Virus record (IMG/VR): IMGVR_UViG_3300027908_000037
Coordinates: 1-39,998 of that record
Length of the DNA stretch: 39,998 nt
From: a virus
Strand: one strand, 5' to 3'
The translations under genes and the position numbers were made by a program. This document shows positions 9,403 through 37,809 of the stretch, piece after piece (the first letter of the stretch is position 1; each line of letters starts with the position of its first letter). The notes below the pieces were generated by a model, which worked only from the letters and a program-made list of their open reading frames with translations, searched no databases and had not been told where the DNA came from.

Positions 9403-9498
9403 ATGGAGTATGAATATATCGTAACAACTGGGCCAATTGACCTGCTTATAGTGTCTACGAATCCACGGATGGTGTGGATCGTAATTACTTATGCGTAG
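9403..9498 (+). CDS. Possible 31-aa protein
   Basis: The ATG comes one base after the previous stop, with AAAGGGAAAG upstream as ribosome site. It is hydrophobic and beta-like. It ends in TAG, just before the promoter region at 9532-9560. Confidence 0.35.
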   Translation: MEYEYIVTTGPIDLLIVSTNPRMVWIVITYA

Positions 9499-14817: not shown

Positions 14818-14987
14818 TACGCAAATGGCTTCCAGTTCGATTCATTCGAGCTATGTGCATCATGGTGCCTTACGTGTGGAGAGCGCATATGATCTGGGGA
14901 ATCACGACACCGAAAGAACTCCGCGAATCCGGCATGTATGCGAAGGAAAGAGAACATGCAATACGGGTACTGATGGGAGAGGAATGA
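14814..14987 (+). CDS. Small basic protein, 57 aa
   Basis: It starts at GTG 14814 with GTGA coupling. The N-terminal part is hydrophobic and basic (WLPVRFIRAMCIMVPYVW), possibly membrane associated; the C-terminus is helical and charged. It ends on the ATG of the MazG-like gene. Confidence 0.45.
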   Translation: MIRKWLPVRFIRAMCIMVPYVWRAHMIWGITTPKELRESGMYAKEREHAIRVLMGEE

Positions 14988-15319
14988 GCGACGACACTAT
15001 GAGCTATCTCGACGGCAAGGAAGATCAATCGTCCATTGCTCTCTGGGCGGAGCAGACATTCGGATTGTCAACTCAACTCCGCGCTGCCACTCGCATGAAC
15101 GAAGAGATAGCAGAACTCCTGGCCAAATTGAGCAATCCCAGTGTGAGCAACGCGGCTATCGTCGAGGAAGTCGCGGATATTCAAATCGTGCTGTACGTGT
15201 TGGCATCCAGACTGCATATGGATTTGCAGGCCGAGGTAGAGCGCAAGATGAAAGTGAATCGCGCGCGCAAATGGCAACTGGATGGCAGTGGCTGCGGGCA
15301 GCACGTGGAGGGCGAATAG
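14984..15319 (+). CDS. MazG-like nucleotide pyrophosphohydrolase, 111 aa
   Basis: ATG 14984 overlaps the previous stop. The all-helical core keeps the family pattern: MNEEIAELLAKL, then VEEVADIQIVLYVLA and a final KMKVNRARKW. The E-E-x-x-E and E-x-x-D sets bind magnesium. Such enzymes hydrolyse NTPs or dNTPs to monophosphates. In phages they clear non-canonical nucleotides or affect the alarmone response. Placement near the UDG-polymerase gene fits nucleotide-pool sanitation. Confidence 0.75.
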   Translation: MSDDTMSYLDGKEDQSSIALWAEQTFGLSTQLRAATRMNEEIAELLAKLSNPSVSNAAIVEEVADIQIVLYVLASRLHMDLQAEVERKMKVNRARKWQLDGSGCGQHVEGE

Positions 15320-15999: not shown

Positions 16000-18900
16000 G
16001 CACCCAGCCGAACAGTCGTCCGAATAGTCGTCAGCCATCGTTTCGTCGGTACGATCCATTCGCGGGGCGTCCACTCAAATCCGTTCCCCCTGTCGGCCCT
16101 ATTCCGGCACGAGTGTACTTGATCGGGGAACGCCCCGGTGAAAATGAAGCGCGTAGGGGCTTGCCATTCATAGGTCCCGCTGGAAAATATCTGGACATTT
16201 GTTTAGCTGCTGCCAATATCGAGCGATCTCAGTGCAGAATAAATAATTTGGTCTCTACTTTTGCTGGGTACGGGAAACCGACGAAAGCAGAAATTGACCG
16301 CGACCATGATGCACTTGTAGCTGACATTTTGGAGTGCGATCCAGAAGTGATCGGATTAGTTGGCGGATGGTCGGTAGAGCATGTGCTTGGCGTCGAGCAC
16401 GCCGAGATGGAGAAGGTCCATGGAGTCCCACAGAGAGTCCCGGCACTGTTCGGTGGGGAATTGCCGCGTGACGGCGGGTGGACGGTGCTGCCACTATTGC
16501 ATCCGGCGGGAGCGACTCACTCACCAGACAGCCTCCCACTTATTCTTGACGATATCCTTCAGCTTGGCCGATTACTCGACCACGAGATCGCCGTGCGTGA
16601 GTCCGATCCATTCGCAGGCCGCGAGGACTACCGCGATTATCCTGTGAGCGGGCGCGGGGTGATCGTCCATAAGCCAGCCGGAGTCGATACCGAAGGCAGC
16701 CGTGTGCATCCATGGTGTATGACTGTATCGACTCGCCCCGGCACTGGGATGCTGTTCAAACCGGGCCAGCGAGTCACGTTCAAAGGCAAAGTTTACCTCT
16801 GGAATGCACTGCACGATCTCGGTGTGCTCAAAAATCTAGGTATCGAACTCGCCGACGACCAGTATGTCGATCTGATGATATTGGCATATAACCTGTGTGT
16901 TCATCCGCAGGGTCTCAAGCCATCTGCATACCGCAACTGTGGCATGCACCAAGACGACTACGACGATATCGTCCGCGAGGCTCGGCTCACCAAAGCCATG
17001 GATTACCTGCTGGCGGCGGCAGACAGAGACTGGCCGAAAGCCGAACCCCAGGTAATCGAGGATGCTGGCAAATATCGCGTGTACAAGCCGAAGTCGGTCA
17101 ACTTTCGGATTAAAAAGATTCTCGACGACTGGACGAAATGGCAGGTAGGCGGGAGAGAAGAAGAAGTCGATCTCAGGAAGAGATGGAGAGACATCGACGA
17201 CGTGATCAAAGCGCCAGTGATCGAGGCAATGGGAGAGCTACCCGATGCCACTTTGGATGATGTCCCGTATGAGCGGGCGAAGTTCTATGCGATCCGAGAC
17301 GCGGATGCCACGTTGCGCATGGCACCGATATTGGAGCAGAAGATCAAGGACATGGGACTGGAAGAGATAGCCGCCATCGACCACGCGATACTCCCGATGC
17401 TGGATTCAGCGCAGCAGAACGGAATCAGACTGGATGGACCGGAGTTTTGGAATGGCATCGAGTCTCAGTGTGAGTCGCAGATGTCACAGGCACAGTATCA
17501 GGTGTTCAAGCTGACTGGCGAGGATATCAATCCCGGATCGGGGGATCAGGTCGCGGCACTACTCTACGGTAAATTGGGACTGACGCCGCCGAAATATACA
17601 GACAGTGGTGAACGTGGCTCAGTCAACGCTGTGTGTCTGGAAGCGTTGCTCGGTCAGAATCCCGTCATCCAGCACATCATGGATTACACGGAAGCGTCGA
17701 AAATCCGAGGCACGTATGTGCTGCCACTGCGGAAATTGTGCATGCTCGGGGATCGCAGAGTACGGTCCACAATACGCAGCACACGCACCACCACTGGCCG
17801 ACTCGCTATGGCTGACCCTCCTCTCCACCAGATCCCGATTATGACTGACCTTGGCAAGCAGTTGCGTGGAGGATTTATCGCGGAATCAGGCCATGTACTC
17901 TACGACATCGACGTGAATCAGTTAGAAATGCGTATCATGGCGCATGACTCCCGTGATGAGGAGTTGTGCCGTCTGTTTTTTGAGAATAGAGATATTCATG
18001 CAGAGACGGCCTGTAGCATATTTTCGGTGCCCATGAATGCTTTGAATGTCGGTCCCACTGGAAAGGTTAACGATTACCGTCGTACGGTAGCAAAGCACTG
18101 CATTGCTGAAAATGAGCTAGTGCTCACAGATCAAGGTTTGATTCCAATTCAAAACATAACTGTACAACATAAACTATGGGATGGTGTAGAATGGGTGACA
18201 CACGGTGGCCTGATTGATCAAGGCATCCGAGAGGTGATCACTTATGAAGGACTCACAGCAACACCAGACCACGAAGTCGTCACGGAAACTGGCACCATCC
18301 GAACGTTTGGGGAAGTTGCATCCTCGCTGGATAGGCTCCATACAACCGGGGATGAAAGGGAGGCGCTTCGGACTCGCTATCGTAGTCTCCTCGAAAGTTC
18401 GGCGCAGGAACGGATACATAGAGCTGAAAGTGAAATGCACGAAGTGTGGCCGGATTTGGTGGATCATCAAGTCGAACCTAGTCAAGCCAGAGTTTCGCGG
18501 TTGCAAAAAGTGCAGTATGACGAAATCCAAACATCAATGGGTTTTAGGCAGAAGATACGATGCCATATTCCAACGCTGCAACACCCCTCACTATCGAGGC
18601 TACAAGAACTATGGGGCTCGCGGCATCAAGTGCCTGTTCAAATCACGCGCGGAGTTTGTGAAGTGGGTGGAGAAGAATTTGCCGCATCCCGATTACAAGG
18701 GCACAACGATAGGCCGGATCAACAACGATGGTCACTACAAGCCCGGCAATCTTCGACTCGAAACGACAGCAGAGCAGAATCTAAACAAGCGTACAACTTT
18801 GTGGATGACATACCATGGAGAGCGCATTCTGTTCCACGACTTCGACAGTCCGTACGAGGCGTCGTGGACATCTCGACTAGTGCATCGCGGAATGACCGGA

Positions 18901-19610
18901 GAGCAAATCATCACCGATGCGATAGCTCATACCAAAAAAGGGCATCGATCGAAAACGTGGCGGAAGTTGGCCGTATGGCTCAATTCGCACGGGTATACGA
19001 CATAGTGAACGCTGGACCTAGGCGATGTTTCACAGCGTCGGGAAAGCTGGTGCTTAACTGCGCTTTCGGCATAATCAATGGAATCACGGAACACGGCCTT
19101 GTCAACTACATGATTCTCAATCGATGCCGCAGGCCGGATGGGGAACCTTGGAACATTGACGACTGTTTGCAAATGAGAGAAGCGTGGTTTCAGAAGTATT
19201 CGGGTGTCAGGCGTTTTCAGAACGAATGTATCGATGAGACGAGGCAGACTGGGCTGGCACGGGAGACAATCGGTGGACGGATTATTTATTTGCCGCAGGT
19301 ATGGTCTCCGGATAAGCGAGTCCGAGAAAGTGCTGAGAGGATGAGTTACGTGATGCACACTCAGGCCGGCGGCCAGACATTGATCAAAAAGTGCATGGCG
19401 ATGGTCTGGCGGGAAGTGTGCAAAGTGCACCGAGAGGTGAAATTTCTCCTGCAAATGCATGATGAATTGTTGTTCGAGCTGCCTGACGATGAGAACTTGA
19501 AACGAGAAGTAGACCAGAGATGTGTCGATATCCTGTGCAATGAGGTGAAATTAAGAGTCCCGGTGCTGGCAGATGGCGGGTTTGGAAATTCTTGGCTCCA
19601 TGCGCACTGA
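15996..19610 (+). CDS. UDG / 3'-5' exonuclease / family A DNA polymerase with an intein, 1204 aa precursor
   Basis: It starts at GTG 15996. Residues about 35-190 are a family-4-like uracil-DNA glycosylase (IGERPGENEARRGLPFIGPAG, then LLHPAGATH). Residues 225-440 are a proofreading exonuclease with D231-T-E, N270-x3-D274 and Y431-x3-D435. The polymerase follows: motif A DVNQLEMRIMAH, the O-helix RRTVAKH at 695-701, then the intein at 702-1021, then CAFGIING, and motif C LLQMHDELLFE. The O-helix Tyr of FGxxYG is Asn here. Ligated exteins would give about 884 residues. A UDG-like domain on a PolA enzyme is known in phage SPO1. It is the likely replicase. Confidence 0.9.
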   Translation: MSTQPNSRPNSRQPSFRRYDPFAGRPLKSVPPVGPIPARVYLIGERPGENEARRGLPFIGPAGKYLDICLAAANIERSQCRINNLVSTFAGYGKPTKAEIDRDHDALVADILECDPEVIGLVGGWSVEHVLGVEHAEMEKVHGVPQRVPALFGGELPRDGGWTVLPLLHPAGATHSPDSLPLILDDILQLGRLLDHEIAVRESDPFAGREDYRDYPVSGRGVIVHKPAGVDTEGSRVHPWCMTVSTRPGTGMLFKPGQRVTFKGKVYLWNALHDLGVLKNLGIELADDQYVDLMILAYNLCVHPQGLKPSAYRNCGMHQDDYDDIVREARLTKAMDYLLAAADRDWPKAEPQVIEDAGKYRVYKPKSVNFRIKKILDDWTKWQVGGREEEVDLRKRWRDIDDVIKAPVIEAMGELPDATLDDVPYERAKFYAIRDADATLRMAPILEQKIKDMGLEEIAAIDHAILPMLDSAQQNGIRLDGPEFWNGIESQCESQMSQAQYQVFKLTGEDINPGSGDQVAALLYGKLGLTPPKYTDSGERGSVNAVCLEALLGQNPVIQHIMDYTEASKIRGTYVLPLRKLCMLGDRRVRSTIRSTRTTTGRLAMADPPLHQIPIMTDLGKQLRGGFIAESGHVLYDIDVNQLEMRIMAHDSRDEELCRLFFENRDIHAETACSIFSVPMNALNVGPTGKVNDYRRTVAKHCIAENELVLTDQGLIPIQNITVQHKLWDGVEWVTHGGLIDQGIREVITYEGLTATPDHEVVTETGTIRTFGEVASSLDRLHTTGDEREALRTRYRSLLESSAQERIHRAESEMHEVWPDLVDHQVEPSQARVSRLQKVQYDEIQTSMGFRQKIRCHIPTLQHPSLSRLQELWGSRHQVPVQITRGVCEVGGEEFAASRLQGHNDRPDQQRWSLQARQSSTRNDSRAESKQAYNFVDDIPWRAHSVPRLRQSVRGVVDISTSASRNDRRANHHRCDSSYQKRASIENVAEVGRMAQFARVYDIVNAGPRRCFTASGKLVLNCAFGIINGITEHGLVNYMILNRCRRPDGEPWNIDDCLQMREAWFQKYSGVRRFQNECIDETRQTGLARETIGGRIIYLPQVWSPDKRVRESAERMSYVMHTQAGGQTLIKKCMAMVWREVCKVHREVKFLLQMHDELLFELPDDENLKREVDQRCVDILCNEVKLRVPVLADGGFGNSWLHAH
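18099..19058 (+). mobile_element. Intein in the polymerase O-helix, with an out-of-frame endonuclease gene inside (320 aa)
   Basis: It begins at Cys (CIAENELVLTDQG, block A), has block B GLTATPDHEVV with the T-x-x-H motif, and ends with VYDIVNAGP (block F) and LVLN before the +1 Cys (block G). The penultimate His usual in block G is Leu. Insertion lies between RRTVAKH and CAFG, the most conserved part of the polymerase. Between about residue 80 and 285 the intein frame is open but reads Ser/Arg/Gln-rich filler; the real endonuclease is in the +1 frame. It should self-splice, unless the missing His slows asparagine cyclisation. Confidence 0.88.
18244..19005 (+). CDS. HNH homing endonuclease nested out of frame inside the intein, 253 aa
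   Basis: The frame is +1 relative to the polymerase. ATG 18244 is preceded by GAGGTGATC at 18231-18239, which matches the 16S anti-Shine-Dalgarno well. After an N-terminus that overlaps intein block B comes a phage zinc domain (GRRFGLAIVV, then KCTKCGRIWW and CKKC). The nuclease part follows: RCNTPHYRGYKNYGARGIKC and the HNH core IGRINNDGHYKPGNLRLET with AEQNLNKR. The usual Asp before RIN is Gly. It ends in TAG at 19003-19005 inside intein block F. ATG 18352 is an alternative start. Confidence 0.82.
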   Translation: MKDSQQHQTTKSSRKLAPSERLGKLHPRWIGSIQPGMKGRRFGLAIVVSSKVRRRNGYIELKVKCTKCGRIWWIIKSNLVKPEFRGCKKCSMTKSKHQWVLGRRYDAIFQRCNTPHYRGYKNYGARGIKCLFKSRAEFVKWVEKNLPHPDYKGTTIGRINNDGHYKPGNLRLETTAEQNLNKRTTLWMTYHGERILFHDFDSPYEASWTSRLVHRGMTGEQIITDAIAHTKKGHRSKTWRKLAVWLNSHGYTT

Positions 19611-20067
19611 CGCTTATTTCTCCCCCGACCGCGTATACCGCTACTGGCTGATCCGCGTTTGGGATGACTCGCTGCCAGTGAACTGCACATGCGGAGTGAA
19701 TCCGAGCACGGCAGATGAGAAGGAAAATGATCCTACCATTCGTAAAGACATCGGATTCTCCGAGCGGCAGGGATTCGGTGGGCTGCTCAAAGTGAATGTA
19801 TCAGCGTTCAGAAGCACTGATCCGCGTCCAGCCAGAGTCCATGCGATCGGCGCTGAGAACTCAGCGACCGACATACGCGCGTACTATGAATTGTTTGAGT
19901 GCCAACAGTTCATCGCCTGTTGGGGACGGAACGGCAGATACTTGCAATGGTACGTGGATATGCTGTTGCTGGAATTTACAGAGGCTGTGTGTTTTGGTCG
20001 GAACAGTGATGGCACGCCGAGGCACACGCTCATGTTGCCGTATACGACGCAACTGGAGGCGATGTAG
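19600..20067 (+). CDS. DUF1643-like protein, 155 aa
   Basis: I chose ATG 19600, overlapping the end of the polymerase gene; ATG 19573 is also possible. The pattern CGVNPSTADEKENDPTIRK, a 'GLLKVNVSAFRSTDP' region, and a later CWGRNGR match the DUF1643 family, often found in phages and of unknown chemistry. It ends in TAG, which overlaps the next GTG. Confidence 0.65.
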   Translation: MRTDAYFSPDRVYRYWLIRVWDDSLPVNCTCGVNPSTADEKENDPTIRKDIGFSERQGFGGLLKVNVSAFRSTDPRPARVHAIGAENSATDIRAYYELFECQQFIACWGRNGRYLQWYVDMLLLEFTEAVCFGRNSDGTPRHTLMLPYTTQLEAM

Positions 20068-24019: not shown

Positions 24020-24230
24020 TCGGCTGGTGGAGGAGCGGTACGGAGCGTTCTGTGCCGCCCCCAGTTTCAATCTCGCTCAGATGAAGCATTGCAAATCAGT
24101 ATCGGACTCGGGTTCGATTCCCGACACCTCCACCAATAACACTAACGGGGGTGCCAAGGTTTCGACGGTGCTGGTGACCGATGTGGATGGGTAGGGCTGG
24201 CGTGGCACCTTACGACACGCAAATGCAACC

Positions 24231-24299
24231 GCCAATAAAATGGCAAAGCTGTTCGTCATCCCGGCTCCGGCCCTGATGGTGACGGCTGCTGCGGCCTAA
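24231..24299 (+). other. tmRNA tag-peptide frame (ANKMAKLFVIPAPALMVTAAAA)
   Basis: The resume codon is probably GCC 24231; GCA 24225 is in frame and possible. The 22-residue tag is long but ends in hydrophobic residues and Ala-Ala, the form recognised by ClpXP-type proteases. The stop is TAA. Tagging stalled products would rescue ribosomes on broken messages during infection. Confidence 0.75.
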
Positions 24300-24319
24300 C
24301 GGTCAAAGCTCTGGGAGTG

Positions 24320-24347
24320 GCCCCGTCCCTAGTGAAATAAACGGGGC
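24320..24347 (+). terminator. Hairpin at the end of the tmRNA gene
   Basis: GCCCCGT (24320-24326) and ACGGGGC (24341-24347) form a 7-bp GC-rich stem with a 14-base loop, followed by AAATTATTCT. It may be a weak intrinsic terminator or a terminal helix of the tmRNA precursor. Confidence 0.5.
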
Positions 24348-24362
24348 AAATTATTCTCCCAC

Positions 24363-24821
24363 ATGCAAGTCGCCTCCGCATTGGCAGCAGTGCCGGTAAT
24401 CGCCCCGCGCAAGTCCTCTCGATGCCCGCATTGCAGACTGAATCAATTTGAACTGGCGAGCGGACTATGCCGGAGATGCCATGTGGAGATGCACGCCCCG
24501 GTCGAACCACTGCCAATCGTTGCGTTCGCGCCTGACCCTATACCTCTACCTGTACCTCTACCTCTATCTCCACCTGTCCTTCCATCCCATCCACTATCAT
24601 TCTGGGTTCCCGCAACACTGCTATTCTTGCGCTTGCGCTCCGGACAGTCCCAGAATCAGATCGCCAAACGCATCCCTACGCCGCGCACGTATATCAGCAA
24701 AGTCGAGAATGGCTGCCTGGATATAACATTGGTGTCGCTTGTGAGATACGCGGAGGCGCTGAATACAACGCCTTGGGATGTGCTTAGATTATGCGAGTGG
24801 TTGATGCAAGAGAGCGAGTAG
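24363..24821 (+). CDS. Zinc-ribbon plus XRE-type HTH regulator, 152 aa
   Basis: ATG 24363 follows the tmRNA hairpin. CPHC and CRRC near residues 21-41 form a zinc ribbon. A proline linker comes next, encoded by CTACCT-like tandem repeats (24538-24590). Residues about 90-145 are an XRE helix-turn-helix (GQSQNQIAKRIPTPRTYISK, then LVRYAEAL and PWDVLRL). It is the last plus-strand gene before the convergent late block, two bases from its neighbour. Confidence 0.7.
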   Translation: MQVASALAAVPVIAPRKSSRCPHCRLNQFELASGLCRRCHVEMHAPVEPLPIVAFAPDPIPLPVPLPLSPPVLPSHPLSFWVPATLLFLRLRSGQSQNQIAKRIPTPRTYISKVENGCLDITLVSLVRYAEALNTTPWDVLRLCEWLMQESE

Positions 24822-28047: not shown

Positions 28048-28512
28048 TCACTGCCACTCACCCGTGACGATCTGTGTTGCCAGTCTCTGCGCGCGTGCTG
28101 GTGATTGCACTTTCGCCCACTTCGAGTCCAGCATCTGTACTGACGCTTCTGGCCAGTTCTCATCCTGCATCGCGGCGAGTGCCTGCTTGAACTGAGCCAG
28201 CCCCTCGATTCCGAGTTGATAACACATATTCATCAGCACGCCGAACCGCACGCCATCCATTGTGCTCGTCCACGGGAATTGCACACGGATATCGGCAGCG
28301 GCCAGTGTAATGCGATTGACTGCCAGATACTCCATCTCGGCGTCAGTTAGTCCGCATCCACGACTAGCATCAATGCAGGTGCCGATGCCGACTGTGACGA
28401 ATCCCTTGACCATAGTCCCAGCGGAAATCGGAGCGCCATCGGCGTCATCGTATGCAGAGGATTTTTCGCCTTCATCTCGCTTGAGCTGATCGATGATATT
28501 GGTGATCGGCAT
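28048..28512 (-). CDS. T4-type lysozyme (GH24 endolysin), 154 aa
   Basis: ATG 28512 immediately follows a TAG that ends the previous frame, in the same reading frame. The catalytic arrangement Glu (KRDEGEKSSAYDDADG) then Gly-Thr (VTVGIGTCIDASRG) matches GH24 lysozymes, and MDGVRFGVLMNMCYQLG is the conserved middle helix. It cleaves peptidoglycan for release. No signal peptide, so a holin or the upstream domain must deliver it. Confidence 0.8.
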   Translation of the reverse strand: MPITNIIDQLKRDEGEKSSAYDDADGAPISAGTMVKGFVTVGIGTCIDASRGCGLTDAEMEYLAVNRITLAAADIRVQFPWTSTMDGVRFGVLMNMCYQLGIEGLAQFKQALAAMQDENWPEASVQMLDSKWAKVQSPARAQRLATQIVTGEWQ

Positions 28513-29421
28513 CTACTTCCCCAGCCTCGTTCCCGATAAGACAGAAATGATGTGCTCGAATCCCGTTCCCTCGTCGTAGTCGTTCCACGTCGGAATCGCC
28601 ACGTACTTGATGCTCGGCGGGATTGTTGCCACTTGGTCAAAGAACCAGTTGCCAGCTTGGTGATCCAGCCACCGTGTGGGGGTGGTTCCCGGCCAAGCCG
28701 ACAACAGCCAGTTACGGAGACCCTTCCATGCAGATTGCAGCGCCCCAGTCGGCGTAGGCTGTCCGCCATCGCAGAACATGATGTTCGCGCTGGCAATCTT
28801 CATCGTGGGCTTGGCGTGGTCGGCTTTGAGATCAGCCAATGCCAACGCAGGATTCGACGGATTATCACCTGTAACGATATTCGGCCACGAGTATCCCGTG
28901 TGCCATGAGAGGATGGGAATTGTCGGCACTGCTGCTTGCACCGTGGCCACATCGACTCCCGCCGAGGCGTTCATATCGAATTCCAGCACGTATTTCTCGG
29001 GCAGGTACGCCGGGGAGTTCAACACGCGCTGGCAGTCGGAATTCAACAACGCGCTGATAGTCGCTTGGGTGGGATTCGTCTGCTTCTCCGCGATCCACGG
29101 ATCGAGCATCAACCCGAACAGCAACTCGTGTTCCATGCAGCCTTCCCATATGTTCATCATCGCGTCGTGAAGGAATGGGTTTACAGTCGGCCCTTCCCAA
29201 TCCACAATGCAGCCCTTGATGCCAATGGCTTCCATGAAGTTGAGTTGATTGTTGATGACCACAGGATCATTGGACAGGTAGCGGTCGATGCGGTGCACTG
29301 TGGTGCCGTTGTTTTCGCCAAACCAGCCCTGCATGTGCGCGAGAGGTACGCCATTCCAGCCGACGATGTTCTTTTGCAGGGACTTTCCGAGATCGAGTGT
29401 TACTGGCGCGGTCATGGTCAT
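28513..29421 (-). CDS. Glycoside-hydrolase-like TIM barrel (GH71/GH99 type), 302 aa
   Basis: ATG 29421 overlaps the preceding stop. HMQGWFGENN near the start, KGCIVDWEGP in the middle and AIPTWNDYDEGTGFEH near the end match the barrel seen in GH71/GH99-type enzymes. It ends in TAG (28513-28515), directly followed in frame by the lysozyme ATG, so amber readthrough would give a 457-residue two-domain lysin. It probably degrades a cell-surface polysaccharide. Confidence 0.65.
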   Translation of the reverse strand: MTMTAPVTLDLGKSLQKNIVGWNGVPLAHMQGWFGENNGTTVHRIDRYLSNDPVVINNQLNFMEAIGIKGCIVDWEGPTVNPFLHDAMMNIWEGCMEHELLFGLMLDPWIAEKQTNPTQATISALLNSDCQRVLNSPAYLPEKYVLEFDMNASAGVDVATVQAAVPTIPILSWHTGYSWPNIVTGDNPSNPALALADLKADHAKPTMKIASANIMFCDGGQPTPTGALQSAWKGLRNWLLSAWPGTTPTRWLDHQAGNWFFDQVATIPPSIKYVAIPTWNDYDEGTGFEHIISVLSGTRLGK

Positions 29422-31097: not shown

Positions 31098-31586
31098 CTA
31101 ATTGCCGTGTGGAACAGTTGTAGTCGTGGTTTCGAGTGCAGTCACCTTGGTCTGCACAATTGCCGCCTGCACCACTGCCTGCTGCGGCAACGGATGTGGC
31201 ATTTGTGGCAGCACCCCAGTGAGAAATGGTATCTTGCTGCCCACGGTGCTGATAATGAAATCCAGCAGCGAATCCGCAGTGTGCCCGAACAGCGCCGCGC
31301 ATGGCGCGAACTTTGTAATCGTCCCAATCACCCCGCTCATGCTGCTCCAGCCGAGGTACTCAAGTCCACCCGACAGGAACTGCGGAGTGAAGCACAACCA
31401 GAACATGATGCTGTCGAGGAACGCGCGCACAATCAGCGGAATCCAGCATCTCCGGATGAAATCGGAATAATTATTGGCAACAGGATTAGGCCCGGTGACG
31501 AGGAAGTAGGCTCGTTTCAGCCAGTACATGAACACGCCGATGCCGAACCACGCCCAGAGCCATAACAAATGCCATTGCACGTTCAT
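31098..31586 (-). CDS. Multi-pass membrane protein, 162 aa
   Basis: ATG 31586 has no clear ribosome site. Hydrophobic segments at about 5-22, 52-70 and 75-100 (LWLWAWFGIGVFMYWL and others) suggest three helices. The tail is a Gln/Val/Thr-rich helix. Ends in TAG. Possibly part of the lysis group; function unknown. Confidence 0.55.
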   Translation of the reverse strand: MNVQWHLLWLWAWFGIGVFMYWLKRAYFLVTGPNPVANNYSDFIRRCWIPLIVRAFLDSIMFWLCFTPQFLSGGLEYLGWSSMSGVIGTITKFAPCAALFGHTADSLLDFIISTVGSKIPFLTGVLPQMPHPLPQQAVVQAAIVQTKVTALETTTTTVPHGN

Positions 31587-37157: not shown

Positions 37158-37234
37158 TGGAGCACCGTGCGGGACTCGAACCCGCGACCGTTGGAATTAG
37201 AATCCACTGCTCTGCCAGTCTGAGCTAACGGTGC
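37158..37234 (-). tRNA. tRNA with anticodon CUA (amber suppressor type)
   Basis: Full cloverleaf on the minus strand: acceptor GCACCGT/ACGGTGC, D stem GCTC/GAGC with GG in the loop, anticodon stem GTGGA/TCCAA (one G-A mismatch at the outer pair), loop TTCTAAT giving CTA, variable CGGTC, T-arm GCGGG-TTCGAGT-CCCGC, discriminator T, encoded CCA. It should read UAG. The charged amino acid is unknown. Confidence 0.85.
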
Positions 37235-37245
37235 CCGTCATAAAA

Positions 37246-37321
37246 TGGAGCCGAGGGATGGAATTGAACCACCGACCTCTCTGCTAAAAGCAGAGTGCTC
37301 TGGCAACTGAGCTACCTCGGC
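37246..37321 (-). tRNA. tRNA-Lys (anticodon UUU)
   Basis: Acceptor GCCGAGG/CCTCGGC, D stem GCTC/GAGC, anticodon stem CTCTG/CAGAG with loop CTTTTAG, T-arm GGTGG-TTCAATT-CCATC, encoded CCA. Discriminator is T rather than the A usual for lysine tRNA, and the D-loop lacks the GG pair, so charging may be altered. Confidence 0.88.
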
Positions 37322-37322
37322 T

Positions 37323-37396
37323 TGGCACTCGCGGCTGGCAGTGAGCCAGCATCTCCGGCTTTAGAGGCCGATGCTCTCCGATTGAGCTACGCGAGT
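37323..37396 (-). tRNA. Second tRNA with anticodon CUA (amber suppressor type)
   Basis: Acceptor ACTCGCG/CGCGAGT, D stem GCTC/GAGC with loop AATCGGA, anticodon stem TCGGC/GCCGG, loop CTCTAAA giving CTA (the loop also found in supF), four-base variable region, T-stem GCTGG/CCAGC with an unusual loop CTCACTG in place of the TTC-type loop, discriminator G, encoded CCA. The odd T-loop may affect stability. Confidence 0.78.
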
Positions 37397-37771
37397 ATTG
37401 GTGAGAGGACCAGGTGTGACCCCCGAGGCCGTTTGACCGGCTGTCCCCTCATGTGACCACAGTCGATAATGCCGCAGCACCTGTTTCTGTCCTTCCCCAA
37501 CAGCAGCCGTGGCAATCGCCGTGAACCCCATATCGTTGTCAGGCTCAGTCCAGCAGTAATGCGGAATTTGCGCAGCCTGCAACTTCGCAAGCACGCGATT
37601 GAGCGCATTCACGTCTGGAACGCCGATGAGAACGATGTTGGGGATCCCCTCACCCTGCGGATAGCATGTGGAAATGCCTCGCGTGGCGTGGTTCGATTGG
37701 ACCATTTGATGCTGTATGGGAAGGTCTTGCCGGATGAACAGGTAGGCGTGGCGGTTGTCGATCTATGTCAT
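37361..37771 (-). CDS. Peptidyl-tRNA hydrolase 2-like protein with TAG as third codon
   Basis: The conserved body reads IPNIVLIGVPDVNALNRVLA, IPHYCWTEPDNDMG and FTAIATAAVG, typical of phage PTH2-like proteins that cleave peptidyl-tRNA. The family N-terminus RHAYLFIRQDLPIQHQMVQS is present in frame but has no ATG, GTG or TTG except ATG 37771, and codon three after it is TAG (37763-37765). An M within the body (37705) would lose the first strand. So full-length product needs amber readthrough. The 3' end overlaps the second CUA tRNA. Confidence 0.7.
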
Positions 37772-37780
37772 AATGTCGAT

Positions 37781-37809
37781 AATATAGCGCGGTGCGATTC
37801 CGCTGTCAA
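37781..37809 (-). promoter_or_regulatory. Strong sigma70-like promoter (TTGACA-17-TATATT)
   Basis: On the minus strand: TTGACA at 37809-37804, 17 bases, TATATT at 37786-37781 (5/6). The start near 37774 leaves about three bases before ATG 37771. It drives the PTH2-like gene and probably the three tRNAs behind it. Confidence 0.8.

Follow-up and report, generated by a model that had tools for sequence, protein, structure and literature searches.

The DNA analysed here, a linear stretch of 39,998 bases that constitutes a whole IMG/VR virus record and is referred to as the window, carries a PTH2-like gene whose third codon is an in-frame UAG and which adjoins two tRNAs with the amber-reading anticodon CTA. 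Homology to other PTH2 proteins starts right after the UAG, the stretch from the UAG to the first beta strand of the domain contains no usual start codon, and the arrangement recurs in unrelated phages as an ATG, zero to three codons, a TAG and a PTH2 domain that share their strand with nearby CTA tRNAs. We consider it probable, at about three chances in four, that the suppressor tRNAs gate the synthesis of a phage peptidyl-tRNA hydrolase, a reading derived from sequence comparison. Under this reading, the UAG would be read through in the cell, the phage tRNAs would be responsible and the stop codon would serve as a regulatory gate.

The PTH2-like gene and the adjoining tRNAs

The frame, found by listing TAG-dependent frames in the gaps between genes, reads ATG ACA TAG ATC GAC AAC CGC CAC GCC TAC and continues for 133 open codons after the TAG (Table 1). 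Its 3′ end overlaps one of the CTA tRNAs, t3, by 36 bases, placing the TAA inside the tRNA. The first usual in-frame start codon past the TAG lies at 37705, inside the conserved domain, and initiation there would therefore entail the loss of the first strand. Nine bases separate the best promoter candidate from the ATG, four promoter sites having been found in the region against 1.9 expected by shuffling, and the TAG lies 369 bases from the nearest CTA tRNA, on the same strand. The window thus displays every element proposed for a UAG-gated PTH2 gene, namely an ATG, zero to three codons, an in-frame TAG and the domain, with no usual start between.

Table 1. Principal features of the window
Feature	Position	Strand	Details
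Candidate UAG-gated PTH2-like gene	37361-37771	minus	ATG ACA TAG at 37771-37763; TAA at 37363-37361
In-frame TAG, codon 3	37763-37765	minus	adjoins the tRNA cluster on its upstream side
PTH2-like domain after the UAG	37454-37762	minus	initial beta strand spans post-UAG residues 5-11
Sigma-70-like promoter TTGACA-17-TATATT (11/12)	37781-37809	minus	transcription predicted to begin near 37774, practically at the ATG
Amber suppressor tRNA t1	37158-37234	minus	anticodon CTA; G1-C72, U73, loop TTCTAAT, CCA encoded; ARAGORN, Rfam
tRNA with anticodon TTT (called Lys)	37246-37321	minus	U73, GCC acceptor end Thr-like; ARAGORN, Rfam, identity table in excerpt of PMC9976931
Amber suppressor tRNA t3	37323-37396	minus	anticodon CTA; A1-U72, G73, Trp-like loop CTCTAAA, T loop CTCACTG
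Permuted (two-piece) tmRNA gene	24043-24390	plus	RF04321, 85.8 bits (cut-off 47); ARAGORN structure and tag
TAG-ended genes with TAA- or TGA-ended homologues	14825-15319, 19573-20067, 24363-24821, 28513-29421, 31098-31586		

The window protein matches PHROG 34073 with an E-value of 1.8e-6, and its match to the Pfam PTH2 family (PF01981) is weak, at 13.7 bits against a cut-off of 23. When a profile was built from 18 gated sequences, its best seven matches were solved PTH2-type chains with E-values from 3.8e-9 to 0.036, including 24bt (3.8e-9), 2zv3 (6.2e-8), 1rzw (5.1e-6) and four more; homologues in mycobacteriophages are annotated as peptidyl tRNA hydrolase. AlphaFold predicts a confident fold for the window domain (mean pLDDT 88.7), including the first strand, and the protein extends about 26 residues beyond the domain, into t3. 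Six residues are invariant in the alignment (R11, D13, Q22, H25, E73 and T81 in post-UAG numbering). Under the gating reading, the product would be an active hydrolase.

A preliminary description of this DNA had recognized two non-identical CTA cloverleaves with encoded CCA beside a tRNA-Lys, but had overlooked the in-frame TAG at 37763-37765. Two programs bear out the tRNAs, ARAGORN calling CTA, TTT and CTA across 37158-37396 and Rfam (RF00005) giving 60.9, 62.9 and 58.2 bits. Since these scores are about twice the cut-off of 29, with E-values of at most 3.5e-10, chance is excluded for all three tRNAs, each of which has its 3′ CCA encoded. The two CTA tRNAs are no duplicates of each other, their alignment comprising 50 identities, 21 mismatches and 9 gaps, and the T loop of t3 is unusual in lacking T54 and A58. 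ARAGORN labels them tRNA-Pyl, which is its name for any CTA tRNA. A genuine tRNA-Pyl is marked by a short variable loop and an accompanying PylRS; t1 and t3 depart from that type, with variable loops 4 and 5 bases long and an ordinary D arm, and no PylRS occurs among the window proteins scanned.

The acceptor ends make it plausible that t1 and t3 carry different amino acids. According to excerpts of PMC9976931, G73 with A1-U72 fits Trp in bacteria, charging of an amber tRNA-Trp with Gln is known, and U73, together with G1-C72 and C2-G71, is compatible with Gly or Thr. The tRNA with anticodon TTT has U73 where A73 is usual and may be charged other than as Lys. A nearest-neighbour comparison of all three with E. 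coli and viral tRNAs gave mixed charging signals, and a scan for further tRNAs of the t1 type returned no match.

Recurrence of the arrangement in other phages

A tblastn search of phages with the post-TAG protein returned 19 records, several of them jumbo phages of enterobacteria and Acinetobacter, with alignments beginning at residues 1-7. Nine of these homologues were examined, and eight have an ATG followed by one or two codons, a TAG and the PTH2 domain: ATG CTG TAG in Arash, ATG ACT TAG in ME3, ATG GCA CAA TAG in CBB and GAP32, ATG ACG CAC TAG in SNUABM_19, ATG ACT CAC TAG in LR756511 and ATG GCT CAC TAG in XbC2 and Kaldavass. The ninth, in Hallingskeid, has no TAG and a normal start. 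The annotated gene starts downstream of the TAG in Arash, CBB, GAP32, ME3, XbC2 and Kaldavass, no gene is annotated at the locus in SNUABM_19, and the LR756511 record is wholly without annotation; if the gate is real, hydrolase genes of this kind are being misannotated or missed in isolate genomes. In ME3, a CTA tRNA is annotated at 418 bases from the TAG. The same genome has a CTA tRNA in the case of the window, ME3 and 21 gated loci. PTH2 gave no match in phAss-1.

A broader comparison came from pattern scans of IMG/VR that had yielded at least 120 loci with Trp-loop CTA tRNAs and at least 120 with Trp(CCA) tRNAs, both sets having been assembled with a different question in mind, when the gate had yet to be noticed. 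They comprise 1.03 and 1.04 Mb of DNA, the CTA loci coming from larger genomes; among the matches listed, ARAGORN confirms 118 of 120 tRNAs in each set, and two CTA tRNAs are present in 14 of the 118 CTA loci. A PTH2-like domain was found in 47 of 120 CTA loci and in 1 of 120 Trp(CCA) loci, again among the matches listed (Fisher 1.5e-15, ignoring relatedness). An in-frame TAG precedes the domain in 18 of these 47, with an ATG within six codons before it in 16; the other two have an ATG nine codons before and a GTG four before, respectively. The remaining genes among the matches listed start normally (25) or are cut off (4), and TAA or TGA in place of the gating TAG was seen in none of the 47.

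With the window included, 27 gated sequences were collected, giving 20 clusters when grouped at 70% identity and 12 when grouped at 50%. The TAG stands at codon 3 or codon 4 in ten sequences each, at codon 5 in three, at codon 2 in two and at codon 10 in one, with one unassigned, and the codon after it varies (AAC, AAT, ATT, ATC, GTT, GTA, ACT, AGC, GGC or GAA). Twenty-one gated loci show a CTA tRNA, and in each of them the closest one shares the strand of the gene, at a distance of 26-2647 bases from the TAG. The gate is nevertheless one use of CTA tRNAs and not a rule, because 25 of the 47 PTH2-like genes and that of Hallingskeid start normally and, among the matches listed, no PTH2 domain lies within the sampled stretch of 73 of the 120 CTA loci. 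Adjacent pairs of CTA tRNAs of differing type also occur in a 102.6-kb record (L080:5423-5578) and in a 452.8-kb virus record (L081:5423-5578); the larger genome (G022) possesses a permuted tmRNA and had no PTH2 match in the 400 kb covered.

UAG in the rest of the genome and the permuted tmRNA

Outside the candidate gene there is no general recoding in the window, and TAG ends ordinary genes. Reading TAG as sense raises the density of open reading frames from 0.843 to 0.870, whereas TGA read as sense gives 0.900; in the control phAss-1, the identical script shows a rise from 0.683 to 0.875 with TAG read, exceeding the TGA and TAA controls of that genome. The clear rise expected of code 15 is thus lacking in the window, from which the late genes are largely missing. 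At least five TAG-ended genes (Table 1) have homologues whose TAA or TGA stop falls at the same residue or a few residues away. Of the TAG gene ends named in the preliminary description, those at 318, 15317, 20065 and 20714 stand, but the frame tested at 9496 has three internal stops. Its proposal of a partial use of UAG is supported insofar as the use would be gene-specific, with the difference that the candidate target is the neighbouring peptidyl-tRNA hydrolase gene, neither a structural nor a lysis gene.

Among long relatives, the nearest is G005 (86.3 kb), which runs collinear with the window from 16 kb to the end, and because its leftward block of capsid and terminase genes starts at the point where the window ends, most late genes of the window phage are placed outside the record. 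G005 has neither a tRNA nor a permuted tmRNA, and a gap of about 130 bases occupies the site of the tRNA cluster. The capsid protein led to 15 other records, of which 14 are devoid of tRNAs and one, G014 (98 kb; L059:11779-18935), has 23 according to ARAGORN, none of them CTA and several with odd loops and acceptor ends. No close relative carrying the gated PTH2 gene of the window was found. In the late loci of 15 relatives, located by tblastn from G005, no in-frame TAG was seen, in records that also have no CTA tRNA, and the only stops were two TGA in one doubtful reading frame. A tblastn search of all TAG-read frames of the window against relatives gave no true-frame alignment across a TAG in its other genes, the TAG-crossing matches being antisense or shadow frames only.

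Other candidates for readthrough or for a response to suppression were considered and rejected. At 28048-29421 on the minus strand, a GH71/99-like protein directly abuts a phage lysozyme that follows it, with an in-frame TAG (28515) between; relatives end there with other stops and have no lysozyme following, and the pair looks like ordinary stop-start coupling. Readthrough of the TAG at 318 into the frame 381-1013 was discarded, the second gene having its own Shine-Dalgarno-like sequence and a signal-peptide-like start. Crude reading frames end in TAG in 6 of 45 cases in the window and 27 of 80 in G005 (Fisher 0.019), but the reading of this as TAG avoidance was dropped because orthologous pairs show no purge of TAG.

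Several further observations were made on the window and its relatives. The gene for a family A DNA polymerase with an N-terminal UDG domain contains about 319 codons (18098-19056, plus strand) that are absent from G005 and are probably an intein, and L005 carries another insertion, about 1 kb long, close to the 5′ end. An AT-rich stretch at 2166-2285 has a long inverted repeat, runs of G and C and a spurious Rfam miRNA match, and a scan with the VWA protein returned only generic relatives.

The window also encodes a permuted tmRNA, recognizable by a tRNA-like part with CCA and the tag frame ATANKMAKLFVIPAPALMVTAAAA, which is absent from the close relatives tested. It is possible that this RNA is a helper of the suppressor system, readthrough of ordinary stops being able to yield non-stop complexes that tmRNA rescues (excerpt of PMC3985003, citing Ueda 2002). 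The comparison drew on listed loci of at least 40 kb (47 CTA, 38 Trp) and 23 larger records picked by size, with the known CTA tRNA carriers L072 and L081 excluded from the background. Among records of at least 110 kb, any tmRNA was present in 18 of 29 with CTA tRNAs and 14 of 32 in the background (p 0.20), leaving the expected enrichment unsupported; permuted tmRNA alone was present in 13 of 29 large records with Trp-loop CTA tRNAs and 2 of 32 (p 0.0007, ignoring relatedness), an enrichment that one-piece tmRNAs do not share. No link between suppressors and tmRNA is claimed, since CTA tRNAs and tmRNAs in general are unassociated in these samples. In genome contigs, the tmRNA motif matched only in Campylobacterota and Hepatoplasma, and those seen by ARAGORN have ordinary tmRNAs. 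Separately, ARAGORN detected an unannotated permuted tmRNA in the Tunturiibacter phage Tunturi_4 (PP885687.1; L158:43441-43975), overlapping the end of a gene for an RF-1 domain (ArfB-like) protein at 43946-44293; the two possibly form a ribosome-rescue module in this acidobacterial phage.

A possible gate, its alternatives and known systems

The PTH2 frame and the three tRNAs would form one leftward unit, transcribed from the near-consensus promoter as an RNA that begins almost at the AUG and comprises AUG-ACA-UAG, the PTH2 frame and the tRNAs. Without an amber suppressor, the ribosome would halt after two residues; once the phage CUA tRNAs had been made and charged, an amino acid would be inserted at the UAG and the hydrolase produced, releasing tRNAs from peptidyl-tRNAs dropped off ribosomes. 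Such drop-off is frequent early in translation (excerpt of PMC10192219), and two-codon phage minigenes lead to toxic peptidyl-tRNA (excerpt of PMC12487901). The stub before the UAG resembles such a minigene, and failed gating could itself supply the substrate of the enzyme, so that a hydrolase gene starting in this way could sense its own need. In the widest form of this idea, the dedicated job of non-recoding phage amber suppressors is to unlock a phage peptidyl-tRNA hydrolase whose UAG lock lies at codons 2-5, the lock being a self-sensing circuit in which failed suppression makes substrate from the two-residue minigene and success makes enzyme, while maturation of the tRNA removes, in this phage, the mRNA stop inside the suppressor tRNA and leaves work for the phage tmRNA. 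This wider proposal is speculative, and we advance it only tentatively.

One alternative, already published as a proposal for suppressors without recoding (excerpts of PMC7886860 and PMC12386605), is that the tRNAs chiefly harm the host by extending its UAG-ended proteins; the gated gene would then be incidental. The many CTA loci without PTH2 in the sampled stretch accord with it, yet it leaves unexplained a UAG conserved at codons 2-5 of one gene family across 12 sequence clusters, and the TAG-ended genes of the phage itself would be extended too; we regard it as rather unlikely. If the tRNAs instead let late structural and lysis genes use UAG as sense, in the manner of code-15 phages, the precedent would be late recoding in crAss-like phages (excerpt of PMC7886860) and the three CTA tRNAs of phAss-1, two of them adjacent, and the genes concerned would mostly lie beyond the end of the record. 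Against this stand the small change in coding density beside that of phAss-1, the TAG-ended genes whose homologues end alike with other stops and the TAG-free late regions of 15 relatives, in whose records no CTA tRNA occurs either, and the probability of such recoding appears low.

Two further accounts were weighed. Ribosomes might end at the UAG and restart at once on a non-AUG codon, making a suppressor needless, and stop-restart coupling over very short distances, such as separates start and stop here, does exist. The codon after the TAG, however, varies and is often no known start, TAA or TGA would be equally serviceable and yet is never used among the matches listed, and PTH2 genes accompany CTA tRNAs, all of which makes immediate restart very unlikely. 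The TAG of the window might also be a mutation or an assembly error in a dying hydrolase gene, as a single metagenomic record, a long C-terminal tail into t3 and a weak Pfam score could suggest; its repetition in separately deposited isolate genomes, the long open frame that follows and, among the matches listed, the constant choice of TAG over the other stops render decay or error more improbable still. Gating by the suppressor tRNAs is the reading that we favour.

The pair of CTA tRNAs is in itself of a known kind, because non-recoding suppressors and adjacent CTA pairs, as in phAss-1, have already been published. In crAss-like phages, excerpts of PMC7886860 and PMC12386605 describe apparently unused suppressors without recoding. 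The presence of suppressor tRNAs in the absence of recoded genes has been described as puzzling, and a gated hydrolase offers these orphan suppressors a specific candidate target. Among the papers listed, titles, the beginnings of abstracts and parts of PMC5852040, PMC6102473 and PMC12487901 describe no UAG in a phage hydrolase, and the gated phage hydrolase appears to be new.

Several known systems share elements with it. CrAss-like phages and phAss-1 (code 15) likewise have phage CTA tRNAs, adjacent in phAss-1, that read UAG as an amino acid, but in many, mostly late, genes, whereas in the window one hydrolase gene carries UAG at codon 3 and the remainder uses the standard code. The Xanthomonas phage XacN1 has two CUA suppressors, many tRNAs and a peptidyl-tRNA hydrolase; in the part of PMC5852040 consulted, in silico readthrough gave its authors no target and the hydrolase is not tied to the suppressors. 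PTH2 peptidyl-tRNA hydrolases, those of phages such as mycobacteriophages included, share the fold and profile of the window protein, although no in-frame UAG is described for them in excerpts of PMC12487901. The lambda minigenes also combine a two-codon frame and a stop with a link to peptidyl-tRNA hydrolase (same excerpts), with the difference that in the window the minigene is the beginning of the hydrolase gene itself. If the gate operates as proposed, phages regulate tRNA recycling via the genetic code. A suppressor tRNA that gates a gene and thereby lowers its leak has been engineered as a feedforward loop (PMC7969014); that loop is synthetic, and the system of the window would be its natural counterpart.
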